NCBI GenBank assembly: GCA_016795505.1 | Contig: JAEUHH010000109.1 | Location: 1 to 64,000, forward strand | Source: Verrucomicrobiales bacterium | GTDB lineage: Bacteria; Verrucomicrobiota; Verrucomicrobiia; Verrucomicrobiales; DEV007 | DNA: 64,000 bases | Direction of reading: 5' to 3' | Shown: positions 17,089-33,863 of the stretch, one piece after another | How the letters are laid out: the number at the start of each line of letters is the position of its first letter | Numbering within the stretch: position 1 is the first letter of the stretch | Notes under the pieces: generated by a model | What the model was told of the DNA's origin: nothing | Seen by the model: the letters and a program-made list of their open reading frames with translations, nothing else | Databases searched by the model: none | Position numbers and translations under genes: made by a program

Positions 17089-17102
17089 AAAACTCGCCCC
17101 CC

Positions 17103-17312
17103 GCGCCGTCCATGGAACACCCCGCGCCGTCCATGGAACACCCCGCGCCGTCCGTGGAAGACCCCGCGCCGTCCATGGAACACCCCACGCCGTCCATGGA
17201 ACACCCCGCGCCGTCCATGGAACACCCCGCGCCGTCCATGGAACACCCCGCGCCGTCCATGGAAGACCCCGCGCCGTCCATGGAACACCCCGCGCCGTCC
17301 ATGGAAGACCCC
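17103..17312. repeat. Tandem array of ten 21-bp units
   Basis: Ten consecutive units with core GCGCCGTCCATGGAACACC. Variation is confined to a few bases (units 3, 4, 8 and 10). Each unit contains the near-palindrome GTCCATGGAAC. Because 21 is divisible by three and the unit has no stop, several frames stay open (for example a 7-residue MEHPAPS repeat). I regard these frames as artefacts, not genes. Confidence 0.95.
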
Positions 17313-17392
17313 GGACGAAATGGGGAACTTCCCCGGACGAAATGGGGAACTTCCCCGGACGAAATGGGGGCCGAATTTCCGGACGGAATAGC
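17313..17392. repeat. Tandem array of 22-bp units (about 3.5 copies)
   Basis: Two perfect units with core GGACGAAATGGGGAACTTCC are followed by a third and a fourth degenerate copy. Each contains the perfect palindrome GGGGAA-C-TTCCCC. It abuts the 21-bp array without spacer. From 17393 to 17486 the DNA is AT-richer and is probably the promoter region of the sigma factor gene. Confidence 0.93.
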
Positions 17393-17486: not shown

Positions 17487-18161
17487 TTGCGAACCGAATC
17501 GTCCGAAGTGCCACACACTCCGACGCCAGAATTTCCTGATACCCGGTTTACCCTGCTGCGTCGCCTGCCCGACGCTGCGGACTTCGAGGCGTGGCAAAAT
17601 TTCACGAAGGTCTATGTGCCCGTGATCTGTGCCTTCTACATGCACCGGGGCTGTCCCGCCGAGTCAGCCGCCGAGCTGACGAAGGCCGTCATGATCCGGG
17701 TGGCGGAGGAAATCGGCGAATTCATCCCGGTCGAGGGCGGCTCCGGCCGTTTCCGCGACTGGCTTTTCGTCCGGGTGATGGATGCTCTGACCGAACGACA
17801 TCCGGATCTGGCCGTGCTTCCATTCGAATCGCCGCCCTCGGCCGACAAACCGGCCACGCCCGCTTCGGAAGCCCGAAAACTCTGGGAGGAAGAATATCGC
17901 CGCCGGGCCTACCGACAGGCGGCCGATGAGATGCTGCAGGAACTGGGCGAGGGGAAAAACTGGGAGATTTTCCGCCGCACCATTTTGGAACAGGAGGATC
18001 CCGCCCAGGTGGCCACCGACCTGGGCATCACGCTCGGGTCCATCTACCTGACCCGCTCGCGGGTGCTGAATCGGATGCGGGAGCGGCTCGCCCAGATCGA
18101 GATCGACTGGGAATCGGGCGCCGCCAAATTGTCGGAAACCCTGGGGGAGGAACAGCCATGA
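17487..18161 (+). CDS. ECF-like RNA polymerase sigma factor
   Basis: 224 aa from a TTG start; a GTG at 17508 is an alternative and neither has a clear Shine-Dalgarno sequence. Residues ~25-75 fit a sigma region 2 helix bundle. The C-terminal QVATDLGITLGSIYLTRSRVLNRMRERL is a region 4 helix-turn-helix. It overlaps the kinase gene by 4 nt, the layout of PVC-phylum sigma/kinase pairs. It probably directs transcription of a small envelope- or stress-related regulon and is controlled by the kinase protein. Confidence 0.85.
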   Translation: MRTESSEVPHTPTPEFPDTRFTLLRRLPDAADFEAWQNFTKVYVPVICAFYMHRGCPAESAAELTKAVMIRVAEEIGEFIPVEGGSGRFRDWLFVRVMDALTERHPDLAVLPFESPPSADKPATPASEARKLWEEEYRRRAYRQAADEMLQELGEGKNWEIFRRTILEQEDPAQVATDLGITLGSIYLTRSRVLNRMRERLAQIEIDWESGAAKLSETLGEEQP

Positions 18162-20401
18162 GCGATCCGATCCCCACCGCGCAGACCCACCTCAGCGACG
18201 ACACGCTGCTGAGGATGCTGACCGCCCCGCTGAATCAGCCGGAGATCTCGGAAAGTTTCTGGGAGGTGCACCTTTCCGAATGCCCCCTGTGCCGGCAGCG
18301 GCTGGACCGGCTGGCGGACTCGGCCGGCGCGATGGGCCTCCTAGGACCGGTGGGCGGGATGCAGCAGATCGACCAGGTGGCCGCCCATCTGGTGGCCGAC
18401 AGCGTGACCTGGCTCACGGGCATGTCAGCCGGCAAGCCGGCTCTGGCCATGGTGGACGAGGATGGCATCCGCAATCTGCTGGGCGAGACAGGCTCGAAGG
18501 AACTGGGCCGGCTGGGGGGCATGAAGGTGGTGGAACTACTCGGCCAGGGTGGCATGGGCATCGTGCTGCGCGCCCACGACCGCGAGTTGCAGCGCGATGT
18601 GGCGGTGAAGATCCTGCACCCCGCCTATCGCGAGTCCGAGACGGTGCGCGACCGGTTCCGCCGCGAAGCGCGCGCCATCGCCGCCCTGACCCATGAGAAT
18701 GTGATCCCGATCCACCACGTGGCCGAGGACAAAGGGCTGCTGTATTTCGTCATGCCGCTGGCGGATCATTCGCTCTCCGACTGGCTGAAGAGCGAGGACG
18801 CGCCCAACTCAGAGGAGCGGCTCCGCATCGCCCTGGCCGCGGCCAAGGGGCTGTCGGCCGCGCACAAGGCGGGCATCATCCACCGGGACATCAAGCCGGC
18901 CAATCTGCTGATCCACGCCGGCATGCGCGACCCGAGCCAGCGGCTGGTCTGGCTGGCGGACTTCGGCCTGGCCCGGCGGGAGGATGAGTGCCAGTCCCGC
19001 GCCACGGGCGACGGCACGCCCGGCTTCGTGGCGCCGGAGATCGAAGCCGGCGGCGAATCCACCGCCCGATCGGATCTCTACAGTCTGGGTGTGCTCTACG
19101 AGACCCTTTTCCCCGAAGGTTGCATCAACCGCCCCACGGACCTGATCCGCCGCCTGAAAGCCTCCAAGCCGGCCGATCGTCCCGACGACGCGGCAGCCGT
19201 GGTGAGGGAACTGGAGAACCGGCTGAAGGCGGAGATGGAAAAGGTCGCCACCGACCGGCTGAAACGCCGCCTCTACCGAGCGGCCGCGGTCTTGGCCATC
19301 GTCTTCGGCCTGCCGACGGCCTTTGTGGTCGGCAGCGACCTGATCGCGGGCACCAACTGGGTCAACCGGGGGCTGGCAGCCCTGCACGGCCAGACGGTGT
19401 TTGCCATCAAGGGGCGGTTCGGCGTGAGTCGCGGTCTGCGGCTGATGCTCAACGAGACCCGCGACGGCGATGTCATCGAAGTGATCGGCACCCAGCCGAT
19501 CGAAGTGGCGCCCCTCATCCTGAAAGGCCGGACCATCACCCTGCGCGCCGCCGCCGGCCGCCTGCCCGGCCAGTCCCGTCCCACCCTGATGCTGGCGCCG
19601 GACTCGCTGGACTCGCTGATCTGGATCGACAACGGCACGCTGATCATCGACGGGCTGGAACTGCTCCAGCAGGTGGAGCATTCGACCCGGCGGCCGGGCT
19701 ACACGCTGTCGCCGCTGATCCGCATCGGGGGTGGCAATCTGACGATCCAGGACTCCATCATCCGCCGCACCGGCACCAGCCGGGGCTACCCGGCTTTCCT
19801 GGTGCTTTCGAGGATGGACGCGCCCCTGATCCGCATCGTCGACAGCATCCTGGAGGACGAGCACGGCATCTGCGTGGCCCGATCCAGTTTCAAGCCGGCC
19901 CCGCACGAGTCGATCGAGATTTCCAACTCGCGGTTCAACAGCCGCCGCTGGCTGTACATCGATCCGCCGGAGGAAGGGCGCGAATCGCCGTCCAACGTGA
20001 TCCCGGAGATTCATTTCGCGATTACCCAATCGGCTGTGAGGGCCGAAAGCGCGCTCACTCTGGGGAAACAGGCCGGCCCCGACCAGATCCGCATCGAACT
20101 GAACCTGGACAAGTGCCGCATCGAGACGTCGGGACCGGCTATCGTCTCCGGCATCGACAGCGTCGAATCGGTTCGCCGAGTGCTCTCGGTCCGGGACCGG
20201 GGAACCGTCCTGGCCAGCCCGCACACGGGGGTGATCCAACTCGCGGAAGACCTCTTCAGCCCGTTTCCGCCGATCAACGGTGACCCAGCCGCGGTGGAAG
20301 CCACGTGGCGCGGGCTGTTCGAGGGGCCGACCAATCAGTTCGAGGACACCCAGTGGGTCTCGCCGCCGATTTTCCAGTCACGCAGTCCGGAAGACTGGTG
20401 A
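18158..20401 (+). CDS. Ser/Thr protein kinase with N-terminal zinc anti-sigma-like motif and C-terminal sensor region
   Basis: 747 aa. HLSECPLC at 38-45 fits the HX3CX2C zinc motif of anti-sigma (ZAS) domains. The kinase domain spans ~121-350: GQGGMG loop, VAVK lysine at ~151, HRDIKPAN at ~242, DFGLAR at ~268 and APE. A membrane helix lies at ~372-396. About 350 residues follow with repeated short beta-strand patterns suggesting a right-handed beta-helix outside the membrane. The gene overlaps the sigma factor by 4 nt. I infer that the external domain senses a signal and the cytoplasmic part controls the sigma factor by binding or phosphorylation. Confidence 0.9.
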   Translation: MSDPIPTAQTHLSDDTLLRMLTAPLNQPEISESFWEVHLSECPLCRQRLDRLADSAGAMGLLGPVGGMQQIDQVAAHLVADSVTWLTGMSAGKPALAMVDEDGIRNLLGETGSKELGRLGGMKVVELLGQGGMGIVLRAHDRELQRDVAVKILHPAYRESETVRDRFRREARAIAALTHENVIPIHHVAEDKGLLYFVMPLADHSLSDWLKSEDAPNSEERLRIALAAAKGLSAAHKAGIIHRDIKPANLLIHAGMRDPSQRLVWLADFGLARREDECQSRATGDGTPGFVAPEIEAGGESTARSDLYSLGVLYETLFPEGCINRPTDLIRRLKASKPADRPDDAAAVVRELENRLKAEMEKVATDRLKRRLYRAAAVLAIVFGLPTAFVVGSDLIAGTNWVNRGLAALHGQTVFAIKGRFGVSRGLRLMLNETRDGDVIEVIGTQPIEVAPLILKGRTITLRAAAGRLPGQSRPTLMLAPDSLDSLIWIDNGTLIIDGLELLQQVEHSTRRPGYTLSPLIRIGGGNLTIQDSIIRRTGTSRGYPAFLVLSRMDAPLIRIVDSILEDEHGICVARSSFKPAPHESIEISNSRFNSRRWLYIDPPEEGRESPSNVIPEIHFAITQSAVRAESALTLGKQAGPDQIRIELNLDKCRIETSGPAIVSGIDSVESVRRVLSVRDRGTVLASPHTGVIQLAEDLFSPFPPINGDPAAVEATWRGLFEGPTNQFEDTQWVSPPIFQSRSPEDW

Positions 20402-22619: not shown

Positions 22620-24632
22620 GTGTCCGACCCAGCGCCCATCCACATCACCAGCTCCTCCGACCGACGGCCGGAGAGCGTCGCGGGCGCCGATCCGACCCTC
22701 GCTGAAAGCCGGAAAGCCGAGGCCGGCACCGGTCCCGCCCCGGCCCGGAAGTTTCCCGCCCCCATCCCGCCGAAGATCCTCGGCCAACTCACCGCGTTGC
22801 CGGAATCCGCCATCCTGCCCGCGACGCTGGAGGGCCTCACCAAGCTCCACGGCGGCTGGGGCTGCCTCCTTTACCAAGTCGAGGACGGCCTCGCCCTCGC
22901 CGCCTCCTCCCCCATCGGCGACGGGGCGCCGCCCGCTCCCGTCTGCACGCCGGTCACCATCGTGCCCGCCCAGACTCTCCGGGACCGCTATCACCAGGCC
23001 GCCGGCGAGCTGCTCCAACTCGCCTGCGAACCTGCCGCCCGCGAGGCCGTGGCCACCGGCGATTCCATCCTCGTCGAGACCGAGCTGGCCGGCCAGCGCT
23101 GCCTCGTCATCGCCTTGCCGGTCTATGAAGGCGGGGTCATCACCGGCTGTCTCTGCCGGGTCCACCCACCCAACCAGCGCGGCGAAGCCACCGCCATCGC
23201 CGGGCTCCAGCTCGCCGGCGTGCTGCGCGCCCTCTCCGCGTCCCGCTCCGAGACACACCGCATCCGGTCCCGATTCGGCAAAGTCGCGGCATTTGTGGAA
23301 CTGCTCGCCGCCGCGGAAGGCGGAGTCGATTTTGCCGAATGCGCCCGCCGCCTTGCCAACCATCTGCGCGAAGTGCTGGAGTGCGATACCGTGGCTCTCG
23401 CCGTCTGCGGCCGCCTCGGCACGCCGCGCCTCGCCGCTGTGTCGGGCGAGTCCGGCCCCGCCGAGACCCACACACCGGGCCGGCGCGCTCTGCTTGCTCA
23501 TCTCACCGAGGCGATCCACCGCCGCCAGCCGCTCGTCACGCGACGCCCCGGTGCCACTGGCCATGCCGCCTCACCCGACGCCGGATCGGAGGGCGCCGTG
23601 TCGCTGCGCGAGTGGTTCGATCCCGCCCTGTCGCTCTGCCTCCCGCTCATCGACGCCGCCGGACAGCTCCGCGGCGCGTGGATTTTCCTCTGGCGCGACG
23701 AGCCGGCCGATTTGGACGAAAAGCGCACCCTCATCCAGGCCGCCAGCCCCGAGGTCGCCCCGCTGCTTTCCCTGCTCCACCGGGCCAAGCCGGGCGCCGC
23801 CCTCGGTCCCGTGCTCCGGCTCTGGCAGCGCGGCACCCTCTCGCAGCGCCGCCTCGCCGCCGCCGGCATCGCCCTGCTGCTGCTGGCCGGCCTCATTCCC
23901 CTGCCCTATCCCGTCCGCGCCACCTGCGAATTGCAGCCCGTGGTGCGCCGCGTCATCGCCGCCCCGTTCGACGGCATTCTGGAGCGTTCCACCGTCCGGG
24001 CGGGGGAAAAAGTCACCGCGGGGCAGTTGCTCGCGGTCCTCGACGGCCGCGAAGTGCGCTCCCAATTGTCCGAAGCCATCGCCCGCCGCGAGCGGGCCCT
24101 GAAAGAGTCCGACCTCGCCCTCGCCCAGGACCGCGTCGCCGAAGCCCGCATGGCCGCCCACGAAGCCGACGGGCTCGGCCACGAGATCGAGCGCCTCGAA
24201 TATCGGCAGGCCCACCTCGAAATCCGATCCCCCATCGATGGCATCGTCCTCCAGGGCGATCTCGACCGATCCGAGGGCGCGCCGCTCCGTGTCGGCGATC
24301 CCCTGTTCGAAGTCGGCCCGCTCGACCGCCTCGTCGCCGAGATCGCCGTCGAAGCCACCGACATTTCCCTCGTCCGCCCCGGCGCTCCCGTCTCGTTGAA
24401 ACTGGAGTCCGCCGCCCGCACCACCCTGTCCAGCGAGATCAGCCACATCCCGCCGCGGTCCGAGTGGGTCGGCGAGTCGAATGTCTTCCTCTGCGAGGCG
24501 GAACTCCCCAATCCCGACGCCGAACTCCGCGCCGGCCTGAAGGGCAAATGCCGCGTCTCCGGCCCCCGTCGCCCGCTGCTCTGGATCTGGGCCCGCGATG
24601 CCTGGCTGGCGCTGCGCTACCGACTGTGGTGA
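22620..24632 (+). CDS. GAF-containing HlyD-like membrane fusion protein
   Basis: 670 aa, GTG start. Residues ~75-190 and ~225-385 look like GAF-type sensory folds. A single membrane helix lies at ~410-432. A HlyD-like part follows: lipoyl/barrel-sandwich motif APFDGILERSTVRAGEKV at ~448-467, a short helical hairpin at ~480-530, the second lipoyl half (IRSPIDGIVLQGD) and a beta-barrel at ~570-650. The GAF domains would sit in the cytoplasm and the adaptor in the periplasm, so this protein could couple a cytoplasmic signal to export. It heads the block with the M50 protease, TolC and SecA-like genes. Its stop lies at the start of repeat cluster C. Confidence 0.85.
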   Translation: MSDPAPIHITSSSDRRPESVAGADPTLAESRKAEAGTGPAPARKFPAPIPPKILGQLTALPESAILPATLEGLTKLHGGWGCLLYQVEDGLALAASSPIGDGAPPAPVCTPVTIVPAQTLRDRYHQAAGELLQLACEPAAREAVATGDSILVETELAGQRCLVIALPVYEGGVITGCLCRVHPPNQRGEATAIAGLQLAGVLRALSASRSETHRIRSRFGKVAAFVELLAAAEGGVDFAECARRLANHLREVLECDTVALAVCGRLGTPRLAAVSGESGPAETHTPGRRALLAHLTEAIHRRQPLVTRRPGATGHAASPDAGSEGAVSLREWFDPALSLCLPLIDAAGQLRGAWIFLWRDEPADLDEKRTLIQAASPEVAPLLSLLHRAKPGAALGPVLRLWQRGTLSQRRLAAAGIALLLLAGLIPLPYPVRATCELQPVVRRVIAAPFDGILERSTVRAGEKVTAGQLLAVLDGREVRSQLSEAIARRERALKESDLALAQDRVAEARMAAHEADGLGHEIERLEYRQAHLEIRSPIDGIVLQGDLDRSEGAPLRVGDPLFEVGPLDRLVAEIAVEATDISLVRPGAPVSLKLESAARTTLSSEISHIPPRSEWVGESNVFLCEAELPNPDAELRAGLKGKCRVSGPRRPLLWIWARDAWLALRYRLW

Positions 24633-24680
24633 TCGATCAAACAGGGTCCCTTCGACGATGCAACCCTCTTCCATCGGAAA
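24631..24680. repeat. Dispersed 22-bp repeat, cluster C, overlapping a start codon
   Basis: One direct unit (ATCAAACAGGGTCCC) and one inverted unit (GATGCAACCCTCTTCCATCG) fill the space between two genes. The inverted unit contains the ATG at 24658 and the first codons of the M50 fusion gene. Confidence 0.88.
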
Positions 24681-26883
24681 TCCCGACTATGCCGTGCGCG
24701 AGATCGAAGTCTCCGCGCCCCGCGTCCGTGCGGGCCTGCGGTGGACCTTCCAGCAGAGCGGCGGCGAGGGCGTCTACCTCCTCGAAGATCCCCTCCACGG
24801 CCGCTTTTTCCGCCTCGGCCGGCGCGAGCACCATTTCGTGAAATGCCTCGACGGCCGGCGCACCGTCGCCCAGATCGTCGCCGCCCTGTCCACCGGCGAT
24901 CGCGACCTCGCGATGGACTCGCAGGAGGCCACCTCGCTGGTCAGGATGCTCATCGACCACGGCCTCGTCAGCACCGGCGACAGCGACCACGCCGACCGCG
25001 TCTGGGACGAGGTGAACCGCCCCCAGGAATCAAAGCGCCTGCTCGGCCGGCTCGGCCAGATCCTTTTCCTGCGCGTGCCGCTCGGCAATCCCGACCGATT
25101 CTTCATCTGGCTGGCCCGCCACGCCGGCTGGCTCGCCAGTCCCGGCTTTGCCCTCGTCTGGCTGGTGGTCGTCATCGCCGGAGTCTTCGCCGTCGTCGAT
25201 CAGGCCGGGCGCTTCCGCGCCGAAATGTCCGGCGTCTTCCACGTGGGAAATCTGTGGATGCTCGGCGGCCTCTGGGTCGTGCTCAAGATCGTCCACGAGT
25301 GCTGGCACGGCCTCGTCTGCCGGCGACACGGCGGCGCCGTGCCCGAGGCGGGCGTCACCTTCCTGCTCCTCAGCACCCCGCTCGGCTACGTGAATGCCTC
25401 GTCGAGCGCGGCTTTTCCCTCCAAGTGGCAGCGCATCGCCGTCTCCGCCGCCGGCATGTATGGCGAGCTGCTCATCGCCGCCATCGCCGCCATCGCGTGG
25501 GCGCGGCTCGAGCCGGGACCGCTCAGCGCCGCCCTGCACCAGGTCATCGTCCTGTCCAGCGTGACGACCGTGCTGTTCAACGCCAATCCGCTGATGCGGT
25601 TCGACGGCTACTACATCCTCTCCGACCTGCTCGACATCCCCAATCTGGCCGGCAAAGGCCAGTCCGTGACCCGCTGGCTGCTCCGCCGCTGGCTGCTCGG
25701 GATGAAAAAGGCCCGTTTTCCCCTGCGCCCGGGCGAGCCCCGCTGGATCATCGGCCTCTACGGCGTCGCCGCCGCCGGTTGGCGCGTCCTCGTCACCATC
25801 GGCCTGCTCATCGGAGCCGCCCTGCTGTTCGAGGGGGCCGGACTGCTCCTCGCCCTCGTCGCCGCCGCTGCCATGGTGCTCCAGAGTCTTGCCGGAGCAT
25901 TAAAATATCTGAAAAAGTCCGCCACCGCCGAGGGACTCAGCCCCCTGCGGCTCACCGTGCGGCTCGCGCTCCTCACCGCCGCCGTCGGCGCCGCGATGGG
26001 GCTCATCCACATCACCCCCACCGCCTCCGCGCCCGCCGTGGTGCAGGAAGTCAGCGGCGGCGAAATCCGCGCCGAGTGCCCCGGCTTTCTCATCGACATC
26101 GCCGTGTCTGACGGCGCCCGGGTGGCGGCAGGTGACCTCCTTTTCCGGCTGGAAAATGCCGAGGAAACCGCCCAACTCCGGCGCATCGAGACCGAGATCG
26201 CCCGCAGCCGGCTCCGCGCCGCCCAGAGCCTCGCCGCCGGCCAGATCGCGGCTTCCCAGGCCGAAGAACGCAATCTCCAGGCCCTTGAAGAAACCGCCGC
26301 CGAGTTGCGCAATCACACCGCCACCCTGGAGCGCCGCGCGCCCCGAGCCGGCATCGTGCAGAGCCCCGGCCTCGACTCCCTGCAAGGCACTTGGATCGAG
26401 CCCGGGCGCCTCCTGATGACCATCGGCGCCGAGGACCGCAAGGAACTCGTCATCATGGCCGCGCAGGAGGACTGGCAGACCTTTGATGCCGCCCGCGCCA
26501 CCGGTCGTACCGTGACCTTCGTTCCCCGTCGGCGCTGGCACACCGCGCCAGCCACCATCCGCGTCGCCAACGCCAGCGCCACCACCCAGCCCTCCCATTT
26601 TGGCCTCATCACCCCCGGCGGAGGCCCGCTCACAGTCCGCGATCGGCCCGGCGGCGATCCCGAAGCCGCCACCAGTGCCGACGCTCTCTCCCGCTACGCC
26701 CTCGCCGCTCCCCGCTTTGAAATCCGCGCCGAGATCGCCGCTCCGGATGCGGCCGCCCTGCTCTCCGGCGAGCCCGGCACCCTCCTCGCCGCCGCCGCGG
26801 AACCGGAGACGCTCGCCTCCCTGAGCGCCAAAGCCCTGCGCCGTCAGCTCGACCGGCTTTGGGACACGGCCCGCACGCCTTGA
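24658..26883 (+). CDS. PqqD domain-M50 site-2-protease-HlyD fusion protein
   Basis: 741 aa. Residues ~30-105 resemble a PqqD/winged-helix peptide-binding domain. A multi-pass membrane region follows with the zinc protease motif HECWH at 213-217 and the second M50 motif NPLMRFDGYY at ~310. After more helices, a lipoyl-like adaptor begins near 460 (GGEIRAECPGFLIDIAVSDGARV), with a coiled-coil hairpin at ~500-560. It could recognise a peptide or substrate tail, cut it in the membrane and contact the export channel. The start codon lies inside repeat cluster C. An upstream in-frame ATG exists but would overlap the preceding gene. Confidence 0.87.
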   Translation: MQPSSIGNPDYAVREIEVSAPRVRAGLRWTFQQSGGEGVYLLEDPLHGRFFRLGRREHHFVKCLDGRRTVAQIVAALSTGDRDLAMDSQEATSLVRMLIDHGLVSTGDSDHADRVWDEVNRPQESKRLLGRLGQILFLRVPLGNPDRFFIWLARHAGWLASPGFALVWLVVVIAGVFAVVDQAGRFRAEMSGVFHVGNLWMLGGLWVVLKIVHECWHGLVCRRHGGAVPEAGVTFLLLSTPLGYVNASSSAAFPSKWQRIAVSAAGMYGELLIAAIAAIAWARLEPGPLSAALHQVIVLSSVTTVLFNANPLMRFDGYYILSDLLDIPNLAGKGQSVTRWLLRRWLLGMKKARFPLRPGEPRWIIGLYGVAAAGWRVLVTIGLLIGAALLFEGAGLLLALVAAAAMVLQSLAGALKYLKKSATAEGLSPLRLTVRLALLTAAVGAAMGLIHITPTASAPAVVQEVSGGEIRAECPGFLIDIAVSDGARVAAGDLLFRLENAEETAQLRRIETEIARSRLRAAQSLAAGQIAASQAEERNLQALEETAAELRNHTATLERRAPRAGIVQSPGLDSLQGTWIEPGRLLMTIGAEDRKELVIMAAQEDWQTFDAARATGRTVTFVPRRRWHTAPATIRVANASATTQPSHFGLITPGGGPLTVRDRPGGDPEAATSADALSRYALAAPRFEIRAEIAAPDAAALLSGEPGTLLAAAAEPETLASLSAKALRRQLDRLWDTARTP

Positions 26884-26962
26884 GCGACAGGCCGGTCTCT
26901 CATGGTGGAGGAAATCAGGCTTGCTTAATTATTGTTTTTATAGTAATTTTTATAAATTGAAG

Positions 26963-28882
26963 ATGTGTCCCCTCCCACAGCGACCTTCCCGCCGCCCATC
27001 CGCCCTCTTCGCGGCTCGGATTGCTATGGTCGGATCTCTCGCGGTGGCAGGGGCCGGCTGCCAGATTCCCAAGGACTTGAGCGTGTTGCAAGCAAGCGAT
27101 CCCGCCGATCCGGCCAGCGTCCGCCTCCCATCCACCCTCATCGGCGACACCTACACACCCGAGAGCAAAACCGAGAAATCGCTCGACACCGCCCTCCGTG
27201 AGCAGTCGGCCGATTATCTGGCCGATGCCGCCTCCGTCGGTGAGGGCGAAAAACGCTCCGATCTCGCCGAGGCCTTCGCCCGGTCCGGTGCCATCGCCCC
27301 TGAAAGCTGGTGGGCCGACGACACCGCCCGGCCCCTGCTCGCCCACACCGGAAAAGTGCTCCAACTTGATCTCGACGAGATCTACCGGCGCGCCCTCACC
27401 CATTCCAGCGAGGTCAAAGTCTATGCCGCCACCCCGCTCATCCGCGAGACTGCCATCGCCGAAGCCGAAGGCGAGTTCGACCCCGAACTTTTCACCGAAA
27501 CCCGTTACGACCGCAGCCACGAGCCCACCAGCTCCGTGCTCGAAGCCGGTGAGGACAATGAATTCCTCCGCCAGCGCGGCTGGACCAGCGAGTCCGGCGT
27601 CCGCAAACGCTTCCAGACCGGCACCAGCCTGTCCCTCTCTCAGGAGATCACGGAGCAAACGAGCAATTCCGACTACTTCAATCCCCGCGACCAGGGCCGC
27701 GGCCGGCTCAAACTCTCCGTGATGCAGCCCCTGCTCAACGGCGCCGGCACCGCCTACAACCGCTCCCTCATCCAGATCGCCAAGCTGGAAGCCGAGACCG
27801 GCTATGACGAATTCATCGGCCAGCTCGAAGAACACCTCATGGAGGTGAATCGCCAGTACTGGTCGCTCTACCTCGCCCGCGCGACTTATCTCGAAAAGAA
27901 ACGCCTCGTCGCCGACACCCAGACCATCGTCGACGAACTCGAAAGCCGCGGAAACCTCGACAGCATCGCCAGCCAGCGCTCCCGCGCCCGATCCGCCCTC
28001 GCCACCCGCAAGGCCGATCTCGTCCGGGCCGAACTCGCCATCAAAAATGCCGAGAGCCGGCTGCGCACCCTCGTCAATGACCCAGTTTTCGTCGATGACC
28101 GGATCGGCGAGATCGTCCCCGGCTCCCCGCCTATCGCCTCGGCCGTCGTTCCCGACTTCCGCCAGACCGTCACCGATGCCCTCACCCACCGGCCCGAGAT
28201 CCACATTGCCGAAAACTACCTCCGCGCCTCCGATCTGCGCCAGGGCATGGCCGCCAACGAGACCCGGCCCACCCTGAACCTCATCGGAGAGGTCGGCGCC
28301 TCCGCCATGCGCGGCGACGGCGATTGGTCAGGCGCCGTCGGCGACCAGTTCGACGATGTCGAGCCCACCTGGAGCGCCGGCGTCGTCGCCAGCCTGCCCT
28401 GGGGTCGCAAGACCGCCAAGGCACGCCTGCTCCGCTCCCAGCTGGAGGTGCGCCAGCGCCGCGATGCCCTGCGCTCCACCCTCGACCAGGTGCTGCTCGA
28501 GGTACAGATCGCCCACCGCGAAGTCGCCACCGCCTGGCCCGATGCCAAGGCAAAATGGGAAGCCGCCAAAGCCGCCGACCAGGAGCTCACCATGCTGCGC
28601 GACCGGCGCGAAGTCGAATCCGCCGAGTCCGGCACCACCCTCTATCTGGAGAAAGTCCTCGACGCGCAGGAGCGCCGCGCTCTCGCCCGCGAGGAATACC
28701 TGACCGCGCTCGTCGTTTACAATTCCGCCCTCACCAACCTCGACCGCGCCCGCGGCACCCTGCTCCAGGAGGAGACCATCGCCGTCGAGCGCACCGAGGA
28801 CGCCGCCGGCCTCCCCCTCGTCCAACTCGTCAAGCAGGAAGCCGCCGACGACGCCGTCAAAGCCTACGAGAACTTCAAGTGA
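26963..28882 (+). CDS. TolC-family outer-membrane efflux protein
   Basis: 639 aa from the ATG at 26963. The N-terminus has an Arg-rich segment and a hydrophobic stretch ending AGAGC at residue 33, probably a lipoprotein-type signal with a weak lipobox. The two repeated TolC halves are visible: long amphipathic helices, FDPELFTETRYDRS, and later QGMAANETRPTLNLIGEVG. This is longer than E. coli TolC, with an extra N-terminal region of ~100 residues. It would form the outer-membrane exit duct for the adaptor proteins encoded on either side. Repeat cluster D begins at its stop. Confidence 0.88.
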   Translation: MCPLPQRPSRRPSALFAARIAMVGSLAVAGAGCQIPKDLSVLQASDPADPASVRLPSTLIGDTYTPESKTEKSLDTALREQSADYLADAASVGEGEKRSDLAEAFARSGAIAPESWWADDTARPLLAHTGKVLQLDLDEIYRRALTHSSEVKVYAATPLIRETAIAEAEGEFDPELFTETRYDRSHEPTSSVLEAGEDNEFLRQRGWTSESGVRKRFQTGTSLSLSQEITEQTSNSDYFNPRDQGRGRLKLSVMQPLLNGAGTAYNRSLIQIAKLEAETGYDEFIGQLEEHLMEVNRQYWSLYLARATYLEKKRLVADTQTIVDELESRGNLDSIASQRSRARSALATRKADLVRAELAIKNAESRLRTLVNDPVFVDDRIGEIVPGSPPIASAVVPDFRQTVTDALTHRPEIHIAENYLRASDLRQGMAANETRPTLNLIGEVGASAMRGDGDWSGAVGDQFDDVEPTWSAGVVASLPWGRKTAKARLLRSQLEVRQRRDALRSTLDQVLLEVQIAHREVATAWPDAKAKWEAAKAADQELTMLRDRREVESAESGTTLYLEKVLDAQERRALAREEYLTALVVYNSALTNLDRARGTLLQEETIAVERTEDAAGLPLVQLVKQEAADDAVKAYENFK

Positions 28883-28945: not shown

Positions 28946-30943
28946 ATGTCAGCCACCGCCCCAGCCAGGAAGCCCCGCCGGTGGGAGACGCTGCGCGACC
29001 AGTATGCCCTCGACGGCTACCTCCACGCGCTCGGCCACCAGGCCGCCCGCCGGCTCCTGCCGCTCCCAACCGGCGACCGGCCGCACTGGGACGACCGGAC
29101 CAAGCTCGCCGCGATCCACTCCCTGGCCGACGAATTTGCCCGGCTCGATCTCGATCAGCTCCGCGCCCGCAGCCTGGCCCTGCGTGACCAGATCCAGGCC
29201 GGTCGCGGCCTCGGCGATCTCGTCGCGCCCGCCTTCGCCCTGGTGCGCGAGACCTCGCGACGCATCCTCGGGCTTTACCACTATGATGTGCAGCTCCTCG
29301 CCGGCCTCGCCATGTGCCGCGGCGGCATCGCCGAGATGGCCACGGGCGAGGGCAAGACGCTGGTGCAGTCTCTCGTCGCCTACACCTGGGCCCTGCCCGG
29401 CCGCGGCGTCCACGTGGCCACCGCCAACAGCTACCTCGCCGAGCGCGACCAGGAATTTTCCCGCGACCTCTTCGCCGCGCTCGGTCTGACCAGCGCCCTG
29501 CTCCCCGAAAAGACGCCCGGCCCCGCCAAACGAGCCGCCTATGCCGCGGATGTTACCTTCGGCACGGGCACGGAGTTCGGCTTCGACTATCTGCGCGATC
29601 AACTGGAGCGCTTCCGCCACGACCGGCCCCGGCTCGGCGAACGATTCGCCCGCGCCGCGCTCGGCCAGCCGCCGGTGGAGCGGGCCGGGCTTTCGCAGCG
29701 CGAACTGGCCTACGCCATCCTCGACGAAGCCGACAGCATCCTCATCGACGAAGCCACCACGCCGCTCGTCATCAGCCGCAAGGAGGAAGGACCGCACCGC
29801 CAGCCGGCGCCGTTCCTCGTCGCGAGGGCGGTGGCCGAGGCGCTCGCAGAGGGCACCGACTACACGCCGCCCGTATCGGGGCGACCCGTGCGGCTCACCG
29901 AAGCCGGCCGGGAACGCATCGCGGGCGGCGAATTTCCCGTGCCCTGGCAGGAGCTGCGCCGTCCGTGGCACAGGTATGTGGAAAACGCCCTCCAGGCCCG
30001 GCTGCGCTTCCAACTCGACGTCCACTATGTGATCCAGGATGGCAAGGCCGTCATCGTTGACGAGTTCACCGGCCGTGCCCGGCCCGAAAGCTCGTGGAAA
30101 GACGGCCTGCACCAAGCGGTCGAAGCCAAGGAGGGCCTCACCATCCAGTCGGAGTCGGATTCGGCAGCCAGCATCTCGCGACAGCGGTTTTACCGGCTCT
30201 ACGAGAACGTCTGCGGCATGACCGGCACCGCCATCGACTCGGCCGGGGAATTCTGGGAGGTGTTTCGGCTGCCCGTCGTCCCCATCCCGCGCAATAAGCC
30301 GGACCGCGGCGCCGTGTTGCCGACCCGGGTGTTCGTCTCCGAGCAGGCGAAGCTCTGGGCCGTGGTCCGCGACATCGCCGATCGCCGCCACCGCGGCCAG
30401 CCGGTGCTCGTCGGCACGCGGACCATCGGCAACAGCGAAAAGTTGTCCGCCCTGCTCACCGCCAGCGGCATCCCCCACCGCCTCCTCAATGCGCGGCAGG
30501 ATGCCGAGGAGGCCGCCATCGTCTCCGCCGCCGGCACGCCCGGCTCCGTCACCATCGCCACCAACATGGCCGGTCGCGGCACTCACATCACCCTCGGACC
30601 GGAAGCCCTCGAAGCCGGCGGCCTGCATGTCATCGCCCTGGAGATCGAGGAATCGCGCCGCATCGACCGCCAACTCACTGGACGGGCCGCCCGGCAGGGG
30701 CAGCCGGGCTCCTCGCAGGTGTTTTTGTCTGCCGACGATTTTGTGATCCGCCACTACGCCGCCGCCGAGGCCGAGCGTCTCGCCGCCAGCCGCAGCGACG
30801 ACCACGGCGAGGTCCTGCCCACGGGCCGCTGGCCGGAAATCTTCCGCCGAGCCCAGTTCCGCGCCGAAAAAACGCGCTACGAAGCCCGCCAGGGCCTGCT
30901 GCGGCACGATGACTGGCTCTCCGAGACCAAACGCCGGCTTTGA
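28946..30943 (+). CDS. Short SecA-like translocase ATPase
   Basis: 665 aa against about 900 for housekeeping SecA. Walker A MATGEGKTL is at 131-139, the DEAD box ILDEADSILIDEA at ~258-270, a preprotein-crosslinking-type region follows, then VDEFTGR at ~371-377. NBD2 has TNMAGRGTHI at ~539 (usually TDI) and GRAARQGQPGSS at ~579-590. The sequence ends soon after NBD2, so most of the helical wing and scaffold and the C-terminal zinc tail are missing. It is therefore an accessory motor, not the essential SecA. Its position between TolC and HlyD genes suggests it powers this export system. Confidence 0.9.
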   Translation: MSATAPARKPRRWETLRDQYALDGYLHALGHQAARRLLPLPTGDRPHWDDRTKLAAIHSLADEFARLDLDQLRARSLALRDQIQAGRGLGDLVAPAFALVRETSRRILGLYHYDVQLLAGLAMCRGGIAEMATGEGKTLVQSLVAYTWALPGRGVHVATANSYLAERDQEFSRDLFAALGLTSALLPEKTPGPAKRAAYAADVTFGTGTEFGFDYLRDQLERFRHDRPRLGERFARAALGQPPVERAGLSQRELAYAILDEADSILIDEATTPLVISRKEEGPHRQPAPFLVARAVAEALAEGTDYTPPVSGRPVRLTEAGRERIAGGEFPVPWQELRRPWHRYVENALQARLRFQLDVHYVIQDGKAVIVDEFTGRARPESSWKDGLHQAVEAKEGLTIQSESDSAASISRQRFYRLYENVCGMTGTAIDSAGEFWEVFRLPVVPIPRNKPDRGAVLPTRVFVSEQAKLWAVVRDIADRRHRGQPVLVGTRTIGNSEKLSALLTASGIPHRLLNARQDAEEAAIVSAAGTPGSVTIATNMAGRGTHITLGPEALEAGGLHVIALEIEESRRIDRQLTGRAARQGQPGSSQVFLSADDFVIRHYAAAEAERLAASRSDDHGEVLPTGRWPEIFRRAQFRAEKTRYEARQGLLRHDDWLSETKRRL

Positions 30944-30982: not shown

Positions 30983-31822
30983 ATGAACCTCCGGACTCAC
31001 CTACCCACCCTGCTTGGCCTCCTCTTCGCCATCCTGACGCCGGCTCTCGCCGCTGAGGATGCCGCCCTCACCGGCGTCACCGAGCCGATGGAGCAGATCG
31101 ATCTCGCCTTTCCCGAACCGGGCGTGATCCGCACGGTCGATGTGAAGGAGGGCGACCTGGTCAAAAAGGATCAGGTCCTCGCCCAACTCGACTGCCGGGT
31201 GCTGGAAAGCCAACTAAAGATCGCCCGGATGAAGGCCGACAGCACCGCCGCCATCCAGTCCGCCAGCGCCACCCTGACGATGCGTCAGCAGCGCCATGAG
31301 CAATTGCAGCGCCTCGCCGCCAGCGACAATGCCAATGCCGATGAACTGGCCCGCGCCAAGGCTGAATTTGAGATCGCCCAGGCCGACCTGCAACTCGCCC
31401 ACGAAGCCGCCGCCGAGCACGCGCTCGAAGCCAGCCAGATCGAAGCCCAGATCGAGCAGCGCACCCTGCGCGCGCCTTTCGACGGGGTCGTCGCCCGCAT
31501 CGCCCGCGATCCCGCCGCCAGCGTCACGCCCAGCGACGGCCCCATCGTGTCTCTGGTTCAGTTGGACCGGCTGGACCTGGTCGTCCACGTCGATCACCGC
31601 CGCCTCGACAGCCTCGCCCAAGGGCGCGATCTGGCCGTGGAATCCCTCGACCGACGGGTCCAGGCCACGGCGCGGGTGGAGTTCATCAGCCCGGTCATCG
31701 ACCCCTCCAGCGGCACCGCCCGGGTGCGGCTCAGCCTGCCGAACGAGCAACGGCAGCACCTCAGCGGCGTGAAATACCGCGTCCTGCTGCCTCCCGGAGC
31801 CGTCGCCGGCACCGAACCGTGA
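30983..31822 (+). CDS. Periplasmic adaptor (HlyD/RND-type)
   Basis: 279 aa with a cleavable signal peptide (residues 1-24, ending ALAAED). The first lipoyl half is near 45 (DLAFPEPGVIRTVDVKEGD), a helical hairpin spans ~75-150, the second lipoyl half is RAPFDGVVARIARDPAASV, and a beta-barrel follows. It is short for the family. It starts 39 bp after the SecA-like gene and is the third adaptor-type protein of the block, perhaps forming a mixed periplasmic ring with the others. Confidence 0.88.
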   Translation: MNLRTHLPTLLGLLFAILTPALAAEDAALTGVTEPMEQIDLAFPEPGVIRTVDVKEGDLVKKDQVLAQLDCRVLESQLKIARMKADSTAAIQSASATLTMRQQRHEQLQRLAASDNANADELARAKAEFEIAQADLQLAHEAAAEHALEASQIEAQIEQRTLRAPFDGVVARIARDPAASVTPSDGPIVSLVQLDRLDLVVHVDHRRLDSLAQGRDLAVESLDRRVQATARVEFISPVIDPSSGTARVRLSLPNEQRQHLSGVKYRVLLPPGAVAGTEP

Positions 31823-31937
31823 AACCGGCCGGAACCGGTCAACCCACGCGAGAAATTGGGCAAATCGTGCGAAGTCCCTTGCGGCAGCATCGGCGAGAAT
31901 GACTCCGGTGTCGGATGTCCGGCTCCCGGAGACACAC

Positions 31938-32669
31938 ATGCGCAACAGGTTGATCAAACGGATGGATGAATTCCTCAGCTGCCGGCTGGCGGAGGAGCAT
32001 CCCCACGGTCGCCTGCGACAGCATGTCGAAAGGCCGGCCATCACCATCTCACGCGAAGCCGGCACGCGGGGATTGGAGATCGGGATGAAATTGGTCGATT
32101 ACCTCGATCAATTCGACGACACCGCCGAGCATGGCTGGGCGCTGTTTGACCAGAGCCTGCTCGCCCGCGTCATCGAGGAACGCCGCCTCCCCGACGTGGT
32201 ACCGGATTTTCCGAATCCCTTTTCCGCCACCGAGCCCCCGCTGAAGGCGGTGGAGGATCTCCAGGGCACCCGACCCGCGGACTGGACGCTGCGCGAACAC
32301 ACCATCCACTCCATCCGGCGCCTTTCCCGTCTGGGCAATGCCGTCATCCTCGGCCGCGGGGCGAATTTCATCACCCGCGATCTGCCGAATGTGTTTCACG
32401 TCCGTCTGGTCAGCTCCCGGCAGGAGCGCCTGACCGAAGTGCAGCAGTCACTCGGCCTTTCCGACGAGGAGGCTGCCGCCTGGGTGGAGTCGACCGACCG
32501 CGCCCGCGAGTCTTATGTCCGGCGTCACCTCGGCGCCCGCATTGACGACCCTGCCGCCTACCACCTGACCATCCACGCCGGCCGCCTGGAGGAGGATCGC
32601 ACCGCGCGACTCATCGGCGACGCCGTGATCGACTGGTTCTGTTCACGGTGCTTGACGGCGACCCTGTGA
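31938..32669 (+). CDS. Cytidylate-kinase-like protein
   Basis: 243 aa from the ATG at 31938, which has GGAG nearby; an ATG at 31899 is an alternative. AITISREAGTRGLEIG resembles the P-loop region of the cytidylate-kinase-like family (Cytidylate_kin2), and ILGRGANFI and the later Arg-rich helices fit too. The true substrate is unknown; the housekeeping Cmk has a canonical GxxGxGKS loop that this lacks. It lies 115 bp after the adaptor gene and may or may not belong to the same transcript. Confidence 0.75.
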   Translation: MRNRLIKRMDEFLSCRLAEEHPHGRLRQHVERPAITISREAGTRGLEIGMKLVDYLDQFDDTAEHGWALFDQSLLARVIEERRLPDVVPDFPNPFSATEPPLKAVEDLQGTRPADWTLREHTIHSIRRLSRLGNAVILGRGANFITRDLPNVFHVRLVSSRQERLTEVQQSLGLSDEEAAAWVESTDRARESYVRRHLGARIDDPAAYHLTIHAGRLEEDRTARLIGDAVIDWFCSRCLTATL

Positions 32670-32690
32670 GGTGTTGCGTCTCTGCCAGCC

Positions 32691-33863
32691 ATGGACGCCA
32701 CCCATCCCGATGCCCATCTCCGCCTCGTCGAGGCCGCTCTGCGCCGCCGCGCCAGCGACATCCACATCGATCCCCTCCTCGACGGCTATCAGATCCGCCT
32801 GCGCATCGACGGTCTGCTGACGACAACCGATCACCTAAGCACTGACACCGGACACCGGCTGATCAATCAGTTCAAGACGGCCGCCGGCATCGAGCCGGGC
32901 ACGGCCTTCACCCCGCTCGGCGCCCGAAAAAAGCTCACGGCGGAGGGCCGGCCGATCGATTGCCGCATCACGCTGGCGCCGTGCATCAGCGGGCCGAAGC
33001 TGGCCGTCCGCCTGCTGGATCCCGATCGCCTCCGCCACCGCGTCACCGACCTCGGACTGCGTGAATCGGGGCTGGAGCGCTTCCACCGTTGGCTCACCAC
33101 GCTGAATGGCATGTTTCTCGTCACTGGTCCCACCGCCAGCGGCAAGACCACCACGCTCTACGCCCTGCTCCACGAACTCGCCGCCGAGCACCGGCATATC
33201 GTCTCCATCGAAGACCCGGTGGAGTACGAGATCGACGGCATCAACCAGATCCAGGTCGATCACCGGCACGGCATCGATTTTGCCGAAGGCCTGCGGACCA
33301 TCCTGCGCCTCGATCCCGACCACGCCATGATCGGCGAGTTGCGCGATCCCGATGCCGCCCAGGCCGCGGTCGCCGCTGCCGTCGCCGGCCGGGTCATCCT
33401 CGCCACGCTGCACGCCCGCGATGCTGTCAGCGCGGTGACGGCCCTGCGCAATTTCGGCCTCGCCGACCACCAGATCGCCACCGCCCTCGCCGTGGTGGTC
33501 AACCAGCGACTGGTGAGACGGCTCTGCGCCGAGTGCCGGCAACCCGCCAGTCTCACGCCTGCCGAAATCGAGTGGCATGATCGCCACCGCCTGCGCCAGC
33601 CATCCACCGCCTGGCGGGCGACCGGTTGCACGGCCTGCGAGGGCTCGGGCTACCACGGACGCACCGGCCTGTTCGAAGTCTGGCACGTGGATCGCGCCGA
33701 CTACGAGATGCTGCTCGCCGGAGCCGATGAGGAGACCCTGCGCCGGCACCTCGATGCCGAGGGACACACCGATCTGTGGGAGGATGCGACCGCCAAGATC
33801 GAAGCCGGCATCACGACCCACGCCGAAGTGCAGCGACTCGGTCTCAGCCTACCCTGGGAGTGA
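32691..33863 (+). CDS. GspE/PilT-type secretion ATPase, short and orphan
   Basis: 390 aa. SDIHIDP and RIDGLL at the N-terminus, Walker A GPTASGKTTT at ~145, the Asp box IEDPVEYEI, Walker B MIGELRDPDAAQ and the tetracysteine CAEC ... CTAC are all present. The long N1 domain of GspE/PilB is missing. No pilin, platform or secretin gene is in the window. It may energise a pilus or type II system encoded elsewhere, or contribute to the export block upstream. The stop codon overlaps repeat cluster E. Confidence 0.9.
   Translation: MDATHPDAHLRLVEAALRRRASDIHIDPLLDGYQIRLRIDGLLTTTDHLSTDTGHRLINQFKTAAGIEPGTAFTPLGARKKLTAEGRPIDCRITLAPCISGPKLAVRLLDPDRLRHRVTDLGLRESGLERFHRWLTTLNGMFLVTGPTASGKTTTLYALLHELAAEHRHIVSIEDPVEYEIDGINQIQVDHRHGIDFAEGLRTILRLDPDHAMIGELRDPDAAQAAVAAAVAGRVILATLHARDAVSAVTALRNFGLADHQIATALAVVVNQRLVRRLCAECRQPASLTPAEIEWHDRHRLRQPSTAWRATGCTACEGSGYHGRTGLFEVWHVDRADYEMLLAGADEETLRRHLDAEGHTDLWEDATAKIEAGITTHAEVQRLGLSLPWE

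Follow-up and report, generated by a model that had tools for sequence, protein, structure and literature searches.

To our knowledge, the export by bacteria of their own largest proteins is poorly understood. The window analyzed here, a stretch of 64,000 nucleotides from a Verrucomicrobiales bacterium (GCA_016795505.1, contig JAEUHH010000109.1, positions 1 to 64,000), contains on its forward strand an operon which includes a secondary SecA_DEAD protein of 665 aa (28946..30943, ATG to stop), hereafter referred to as the short SecA. In SecA proteins, the wing and the scaffold carry the SecY contacts, and the two-helix finger belongs to the scaffold. A natural SecA deprived of the wing and of most of the scaffold raises the question of which polypeptides such a motor could move, and through which channel.

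An Intact Motor Ending Inside the Scaffold

Pfam analysis of the short SecA returned SecA_DEAD (302.8 bits), P-loop_SecA (176.2 bits) and SecA_PP_bind (76.3 bits) and no match to SecA_SW or SEC-C, while the same scan recovered all five domains in the 1057-aa SecA encoded elsewhere in the genome. The open reading frame and the domain content thus bear out the sequence-only reading of this DNA, which had described a SecA of 665 aa without wing and zinc tail. The motifs listed in that reading, Walker A, LDEADS, VDEFTGR and NMAGRGTHI, were likewise all found. In an alignment of 29 short SecAs (A1), residues T133-T138 of the Walker A motif (ATGEGKT, residues 132-138, 29339..29359, forward strand) are invariant. 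So are three positions of the DEAD box (residues 260-263, 29723..29734, forward strand), namely D260, E261 and D263; many other SecA rows have DEVD in place of DEAD. The scaffold had also been described as missing, which holds for most of it; however, the structural model and the alignment both identify residues 629-664 (30830..30937, forward strand) as the retained first part of its long helix. The window ORF is an intact SecA motor with its PPXD, ending inside the first scaffold helix.

Structure prediction, one of the checks proposed in the sequence-only reading, gave a model with a mean pLDDT of 89.7 and a pTM of 0.88, in which helix 629-664 corresponds to the beginning of the long helix of the scaffold. 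In a fold search, the best TM-scores were obtained with the substrate-engaged SecA-SecY structures 6itc (0.82) and 5eul (0.81), while free Bacillus subtilis SecA gave TM-scores of 0.67-0.70 with a larger rmsd. This resemblance to the SecY-bound state is weak evidence, since the structure predictor may favour one state. It had further been suggested that such a motor would need partners to clamp its substrate, perhaps PqqD or adaptor proteins. The association of the motor with PqqD-like and adaptor proteins fits the conserved neighbourhood described below, but a need for clamping by these partners appears poorly founded, because the PPXD is present and the model comes closest to SecA-SecY structures captured with substrate.

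A Clade Distinct from the Housekeeping SecA

The host genome (120 contigs, 96.56% complete) contains three SecA_DEAD genes: the short SecA of the window, a full-length SecA on contig C38 (1057 aa, wing/scaffold and SEC-C included), and a second short SecA on contig C56 (708 aa counted from the first start codon). According to the sequence-only reading, the window gene would be the essential copy if the genome had no second secA; the search it proposed retrieved the full-length gene on C38 as well as the other short SecA on C56. As a full-length SecA exists elsewhere in the genome, the short SecA of the window is not the essential copy. Against the canonical SecA model TIGR00963, the short SecA scored 567 bits, under the 800-bit cut-off, compared with 940.8 bits for the SecA of C38. 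It also fell under the cut-offs of all four SecA2 models, namely TIGR04397 (571.6 bits for a cut-off of 1085), TIGR03714 (460 for 930), TIGR04221 (416.1 for 725) and NF012136 (393.5 for 1100).

A family alignment was assembled from 122 distinct SecA frames of at least 560 aa, originating from the host genome, its relatives, 80 other loci (the best 80 of 588 confirmed places) and 13 further stretches. The number of residues past the end of the window protein is 0-13 in 53 rows and 122-492 in 69 rows, with none in between; the 53 short rows include L008 and L091, both truncated where their contigs end, and L069, a gene of canonical type whose reading frame is disrupted. The THI of motif V, in which H547 (30584..30586, forward strand) replaces the Asp, is present as the sequence-only reading had pointed out, but it is not peculiar to the window protein, since His occupies this position in 21 of the 53 short rows and in 0 of the 69 long rows. 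All 21 belong to a clade of 22, the last member of which (L012) has TDI. A sharper family mark, absent from that reading, is the change in motif VI, where T578 (30677..30679, forward strand) replaces the first Arg of the canonical QLRGR. This Arg is replaced in 52 of 52 short rows (L069 left out), while the 69 long rows have 68 Arg and one Lys.

Phylogenetic analysis grouped the 52 short rows (L069 left out) in one clade with a support of 1.0, within which the window-type (9 rows, support 0.996) and C56-type (13 rows, support 0.984) sequences are joined at 0.785. The rows nearest to this clade, with a support of just 0.112, are four SecA2-like proteins (L037, L053, L061 and L072) named from their hosts and length. 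The record of L037 (JAGGRA010000050.1) is titled Pseudomonas sp. ISL-84, and its SecA groups with Ureibacillus and Exiguobacterium rows; to judge from this placement, the genome label of the record may be wrong.

Organization of the Operon

All five operon genes are on the forward strand. The first one (22620..24632) codes for an HlyD-type membrane fusion protein with a long N-terminal region, the counterpart of the GAF-HlyD protein reported by Kamneva, Poudel and Ward (2015; PMC4452313), although no GAF domain was detected by Pfam at E<=1 in its residues 94-427. The second (24598..26883) combines a PqqD-like N-terminal part, an M50 intramembrane metallopeptidase with HECWH and NPLMRFDGY motifs, and an HlyD adaptor part. 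The PqqD label, which stems from the sequence-only reading, has subthreshold support (Pfam E 0.11). The M50 Pfam score is 21.7 bits, under the 27.2 cut-off, the M50 call being backed by the intact motifs, and the daptide intramembrane metalloprotease model gave 139.4 bits, under its own cut-off of 300. All 24 M50 proteins that were aligned preserve the HExxH and NxNPLxxxDxY motifs, which rules out that M50 is a mere pore-like relic. The model of this protein (pLDDT 80.4, pTM 0.60) comprises an N-terminal part, a membrane part and the HlyD adaptor part. Its structural matches are known adaptors, recovered via the HlyD part (residues 470-747), and barely cover the membrane part; for residues 31-130, a single match was recorded, to chain 8hkr_B (Z 10.3, rmsd 2.8, 87 aligned residues).

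The third gene (26921..28882) encodes a TolC-type outer-membrane efflux protein (OEP), for which the in-frame ATG at 26963, followed by a lipoprotein-like sequence, was judged by eye to be the likelier start. It precedes the short SecA gene, itself followed by an HlyD/RND-type periplasmic adaptor of 279 aa (30983..31822); relatives of this adaptor directly follow short SecA at many loci. No ABC ATPase or permease model matched any of the five operon proteins, and no SecY model match was obtained in eight window proteins (the five of the operon, two encoded after it and the kinase upstream).

The neighbourhood of the short SecA is conserved across loci. A profile built from 19 M50 proteins (A2) matched in 20 of the 20 short-SecA genomes of a 288-genome phylum sample; 40 genomes of this sample without short SecA also matched, at 543.5 bits or less. 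Similarly, an M50 relative was present in 23 of 23 short-SecA genomes among the relatives. In the host genome itself, an HlyD relative adjoins the C56 paralogue, and a second M50 and HlyD pair is located on C55.

Several other features surround the operon. Downstream (31899-33863) are cytidylate kinase-like and GspE/PilB-like (390 aa) genes, a pair also present in G003, the kinase being found in G001 as well. Upstream (17487-20401), what we take to be a sigma-factor-like gene overlaps a protein kinase gene, and two minus-strand genes lie between the kinase and the operon, one of them presumably DnaJ-like; a DnaJ-like gene also adjoins the operon in G001 and G003. Further upstream, a tandem array (17099-17313; 21-bp unit, 10.2 copies, 95% matches) sits between this sigma-factor-like ORF and one assumed to be acyl-carrier-protein-synthase-like.

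LEPR-XLL Proteins as Candidate Cargo

Very long frames adjoin the operon in several of the 30 loci whose flanks were inspected (L089 and L091 in part). An N-terminal LEPR-like segment was identified in at least seven frames of these loci, six of the seven scoring over the cut-off of the LEPR-XLL model (NF012209) and the seventh reaching 15.6 bits for a cut-off of 17. Some operon-linked matches are weak, such as that of the 18,984-aa frame of G140 (19.8 bits, cut-off 17). The genome of the window has 12 LEPR-XLL matches over the cut-off, nine of them in frames of at least 1000 aa, the longest of 5858, 5090 and 3682 aa; on the window's own contig, the profile had no match. Single LEPR-XLL frames of about 18,200-20,500 aa were observed in G070:C142, G073:C1, G140:C1, G206:C29 and G027:C8, the longest, in G070, having 20,466 aa. 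In the LEPR N-termini of 28 loci, which include an evident mispick (L144) and three without upstream ATG, the 15-residue hydropathy maxima range from 0.52 to 1.87, with no strong hydrophobic core.

In the phylum sample of 288 genomes, 19 genomes have both short SecA and LEPR matches, one has short SecA only, five have LEPR only and 263 have neither (Fisher 3.5e-24, the genomes being treated as independent and shared ancestry ignored). For this sample, as for the Pseudomonas genomes described below, the short-SecA and M50 searches scored the best three to four candidates per genome; in the phylum sample, the short-SecA search also misses copies interrupted at contig ends or with E values exceeding 1e-205. 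All 19 genomes with a LEPR frame of at least 1000 aa have a short SecA. Frames of this size account for 36 of the 47 LEPR matches, and the matches of the five LEPR-only genomes are weak (E from 9.6e-4 to 0.009), their frames being 138-636 aa long.

A comparable distribution was obtained for 57 relatives, with 22 genomes having both, one short SecA only, three LEPR only and 31 neither among the matches listed, two SecA pieces at contig ends (G035:C146 and G025:C213) being excluded from the short-SecA count. Among the same matches, G032 and G039 have no SecA match. The relative with short SecA and without LEPR match, G030, is 73% complete. As for the LEPR-only relatives, G045 has a weak match (E 0.0063), while G046 (82% complete) has LEPR and M50 genes on the same contig and a short SecA was not found. 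The third, G039 (83% complete), has five LEPR matches (best E 5.5e-6, one frame of 1047 aa), and searches for short SecA, M50 and any SecA gave no match.

Within the window's own family, a comparison which is a partial control for shared ancestry, 19 genomes have both, one has short SecA only, none has LEPR only and 16 have neither; for family genomes of at least 4 Mb, these numbers are 19, 0, 0 and 11. In other phyla, LEPR was found in 13 of 17 short-SecA genomes versus 0 of 32 genomes reached through long SecA loci, the latter being hand-picked from 62 other loci and, as they are defined by a long SecA, possibly carrying a short SecA as well. Six short-SecA genomes have no LEPR match (G030, G135, G332, G333, G336 and G337). 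Collectively, these data show that the short SecA co-varies with LEPR-XLL proteins, which are mostly very long. Such genomic co-occurrence suggests LEPR-XLL proteins as candidate cargo for short-SecA exporters, a proposal which is new here.

The genes are also physically linked. Of the 19 phylum-sample genomes with both genes, 10 have a LEPR gene starting no more than 10 kb from a short SecA, where random placement would give about 0.23 (shared ancestry ignored). In G003, a sister species of the same genus, the gene order is HlyD-M50-[LEPR giant, 5336 aa]-TolC-SecA-HlyD-cytidylate kinase-GspE, and the operon proteins are 52-77% identical to those of the window. In G001 and G004, a LEPR gene is likewise located immediately downstream of M50. 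In contrast to G003, the window has at the same place (26884..26962) a mere 79 bp from the M50 stop to the likely TolC start, with no LEPR gene between them, and the cargo gene would therefore have been lost from, or have never entered, the window copy. The window operon may serve LEPR proteins encoded elsewhere in the genome.

SecA-Less Relatives in Pseudomonas

Among 249 Pseudomonas genomes, 36 have LEPR-like matches and a short SecA was found in one (G341), whose M50 match is on another contig than the short-SecA operon. Five other Pseudomonas LEPR-like segments read xALEPR(I/L)(L/M)(L/F)D, without the Glu which LExLEPR has two positions before LEPR. A clean split between SA tags, with SecA, and D tags, without it, fails: the segment of the SecA-linked giants of G001 and G003 is FEALEPRVLFDAAP, and because these giants have the D too, this residue is not diagnostic.

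At three Pseudomonas sites (G544, G395 and G387; L165-L170), relatives of the HlyD protein with a long N-terminus and of the M50 protein are encoded near a LEPR-like adhesin, the OEP domain being confirmed at one of them (G544) and no SecA relative being seen in the flanks of the three. M50 relatives were detected in 35 of the 36 genomes with LEPR-like matches, compared with 111 of all 249; they are encoded within 25 kb of 32 of the 38 Pseudomonas LEPR-like sites, and on the same strand in 32 of 32 cases. A literature search did not turn up any description of SecA-less M50/HlyD genes beside Pseudomonas LEPR-like adhesins.

That LEPR is always accompanied by a short SecA is ruled out by Pseudomonas and by G039. 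Since LEPR-like sites without short SecA occur in Pseudomonas, this protein is not needed by every LEPR-type system, and the pairing of M50 with LEPR there indicates that M50 exporters and LEPR-type cargo would belong together more widely. In light of the Pseudomonas M50/HlyD/LEPR genes without short SecA and of LEPR without short SecA in G039, the short SecA looks like a motor that some lineages acquired, or that Pseudomonas lost.

Proposed Mechanism and Alternatives

The retention of motor and PPXD, the conserved M50/HlyD/TolC operon and the linkage to LEPR genes in relatives lead us to propose that the operon probably encodes a T1SS-like exporter, devoid of an ABC transporter, whose substrates are LEPR-XLL proteins (giant in many cases) and in which the short SecA likely serves as the dedicated ATP-driven motor. 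In this mechanism, the N-terminal LExLEPRxL segment would be the export signal, recognized in the inner membrane by the PqqD-like/M50 protein, which may also cut it. The SecA would then drive the chain, in unfolded form, along a conduit of M50 and HlyD and on into the TolC-type channel, with no two-helix finger and probably independently of SecYEG. A bolder version, to which we give slightly less than even weight, is that these genes could form a distinct secretion system, defined by the LEPR-XLL tag, a PqqD-like/M50-HlyD reader, the passage of chains of up to about 20,000 residues via M50/HlyD/TolC, and a SecYEG-free SecA. In such a system, the SecA-less Pseudomonas version would be the simpler form, on which the motor was gained or from which it was lost.

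Several observations could also be accommodated by an accessory SecA which, in a SecA2-like manner, hands LEPR or other clients to SecYEG, with M50/HlyD/TolC acting after the inner-membrane step: the PPXD and the motor are intact, the model fits the SecY-bound conformation best, and the Pseudomonas M50/HlyD proteins beside LEPR-like adhesins need another motor, which could be ordinary SecA with SecYEG. We nonetheless regard this route as unlikely, as the short rows lack the wing and most of the scaffold, and with them SecY contacts and the two-helix finger, the LEPR N-termini are without a strong hydrophobic core (as judged by hydropathy rather than by a signal-peptide predictor), and no SecY model match was obtained in the eight window proteins. 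It is less probable still that the operon is a T1SS-like exporter of the published type, in which SecA is the ATPase and M50 forms the pore, and which transports other substrates, the LEPR link reflecting shared ancestry or ecology. While this module has already been published (PMC4452313), while the window operon has no cargo gene and G039 has LEPR without the module being found, the association persists inside one family, in other phyla and in operon position, and at 32 of the 38 LEPR-like sites of Pseudomonas an M50 gene is encoded within 25 kb, always on the same strand. Finally, a decaying or inactive duplicate, which the loss of the C-terminal domains, the D-to-H change in motif V and the missing Arg of motif VI might evoke, is very improbable given a clade of 52 members with a support of 1.0, the invariance in A1 of the Walker A and DEAD-box acidic residues, a conserved operon position and a confidently modelled fold.

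With the preferred reading, a dedicated exporter of LEPR-XLL proteins, the SecA family described in 2015 gains a specific candidate cargo and a hypothesis for its export tag. If SecA does work here without SecYEG, this motor would be transferable to another channel and the two-helix finger would be dispensable, which bears on how SecA pushes a polypeptide.

Comparison with Known Systems

Secondary SecA_DEAD proteins without SecA_SW, adjoining M50, HlyD, GAF-HlyD and sometimes OEP genes, have been described in hosts including Verrucomicrobia, with canonical SecA encoded separately (Kamneva, Poudel and Ward, 2015; PMC4452313). Among the carriers of the module reported there is Methylobacterium extorquens AM1 (META1p2399-2402). 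In the part of this paper considered here, M50 was proposed as the pore and the biological role and cargo are left unstated, and a term search of its main text retrieved neither LEPR, giant nor PqqD. With SecA_DEAD in the absence of SecA_SW and with M50, HlyD and OEP neighbours, the window locus is, by its gene content, of this published type. It differs in representing the THI sub-branch and in the peptidase motifs of M50, which are intact in the 24 of 24 proteins aligned here. A literature search found no later work on the function of this exporter.

Like accessory SecA2, the short SecA is a second SecA beside a housekeeping copy; however, it reaches none of the four SecA2 model cut-offs, and the SecA2-like rows extend 173-180 residues further. 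Escherichia coli SecA-N68 (PDB 5k9t), which was among the fold-search matches, is also a C-terminally truncated SecA, but it is a laboratory fragment, whereas the short SecAs are a natural family with an operon of their own. LEPR-XLL (NCBIfam NF012209), the presumed cargo class of the window-type exporter, is found at the N-terminus of a Vibrio giant, about 8000 aa long, which has C-terminal RTX and serralysin domains (PMC10868602); the terms SecA, HlyD and TolC do not occur in that article, where LEPR-XLL is named as a domain only. With type I secretion systems (HlyB/HlyD/TolC), finally, the window operon shares HlyD-type adaptors and a TolC-type channel, but in place of a recognized ABC ATPase/permease it has an ATPase of the SecA type together with an M50 membrane protein.
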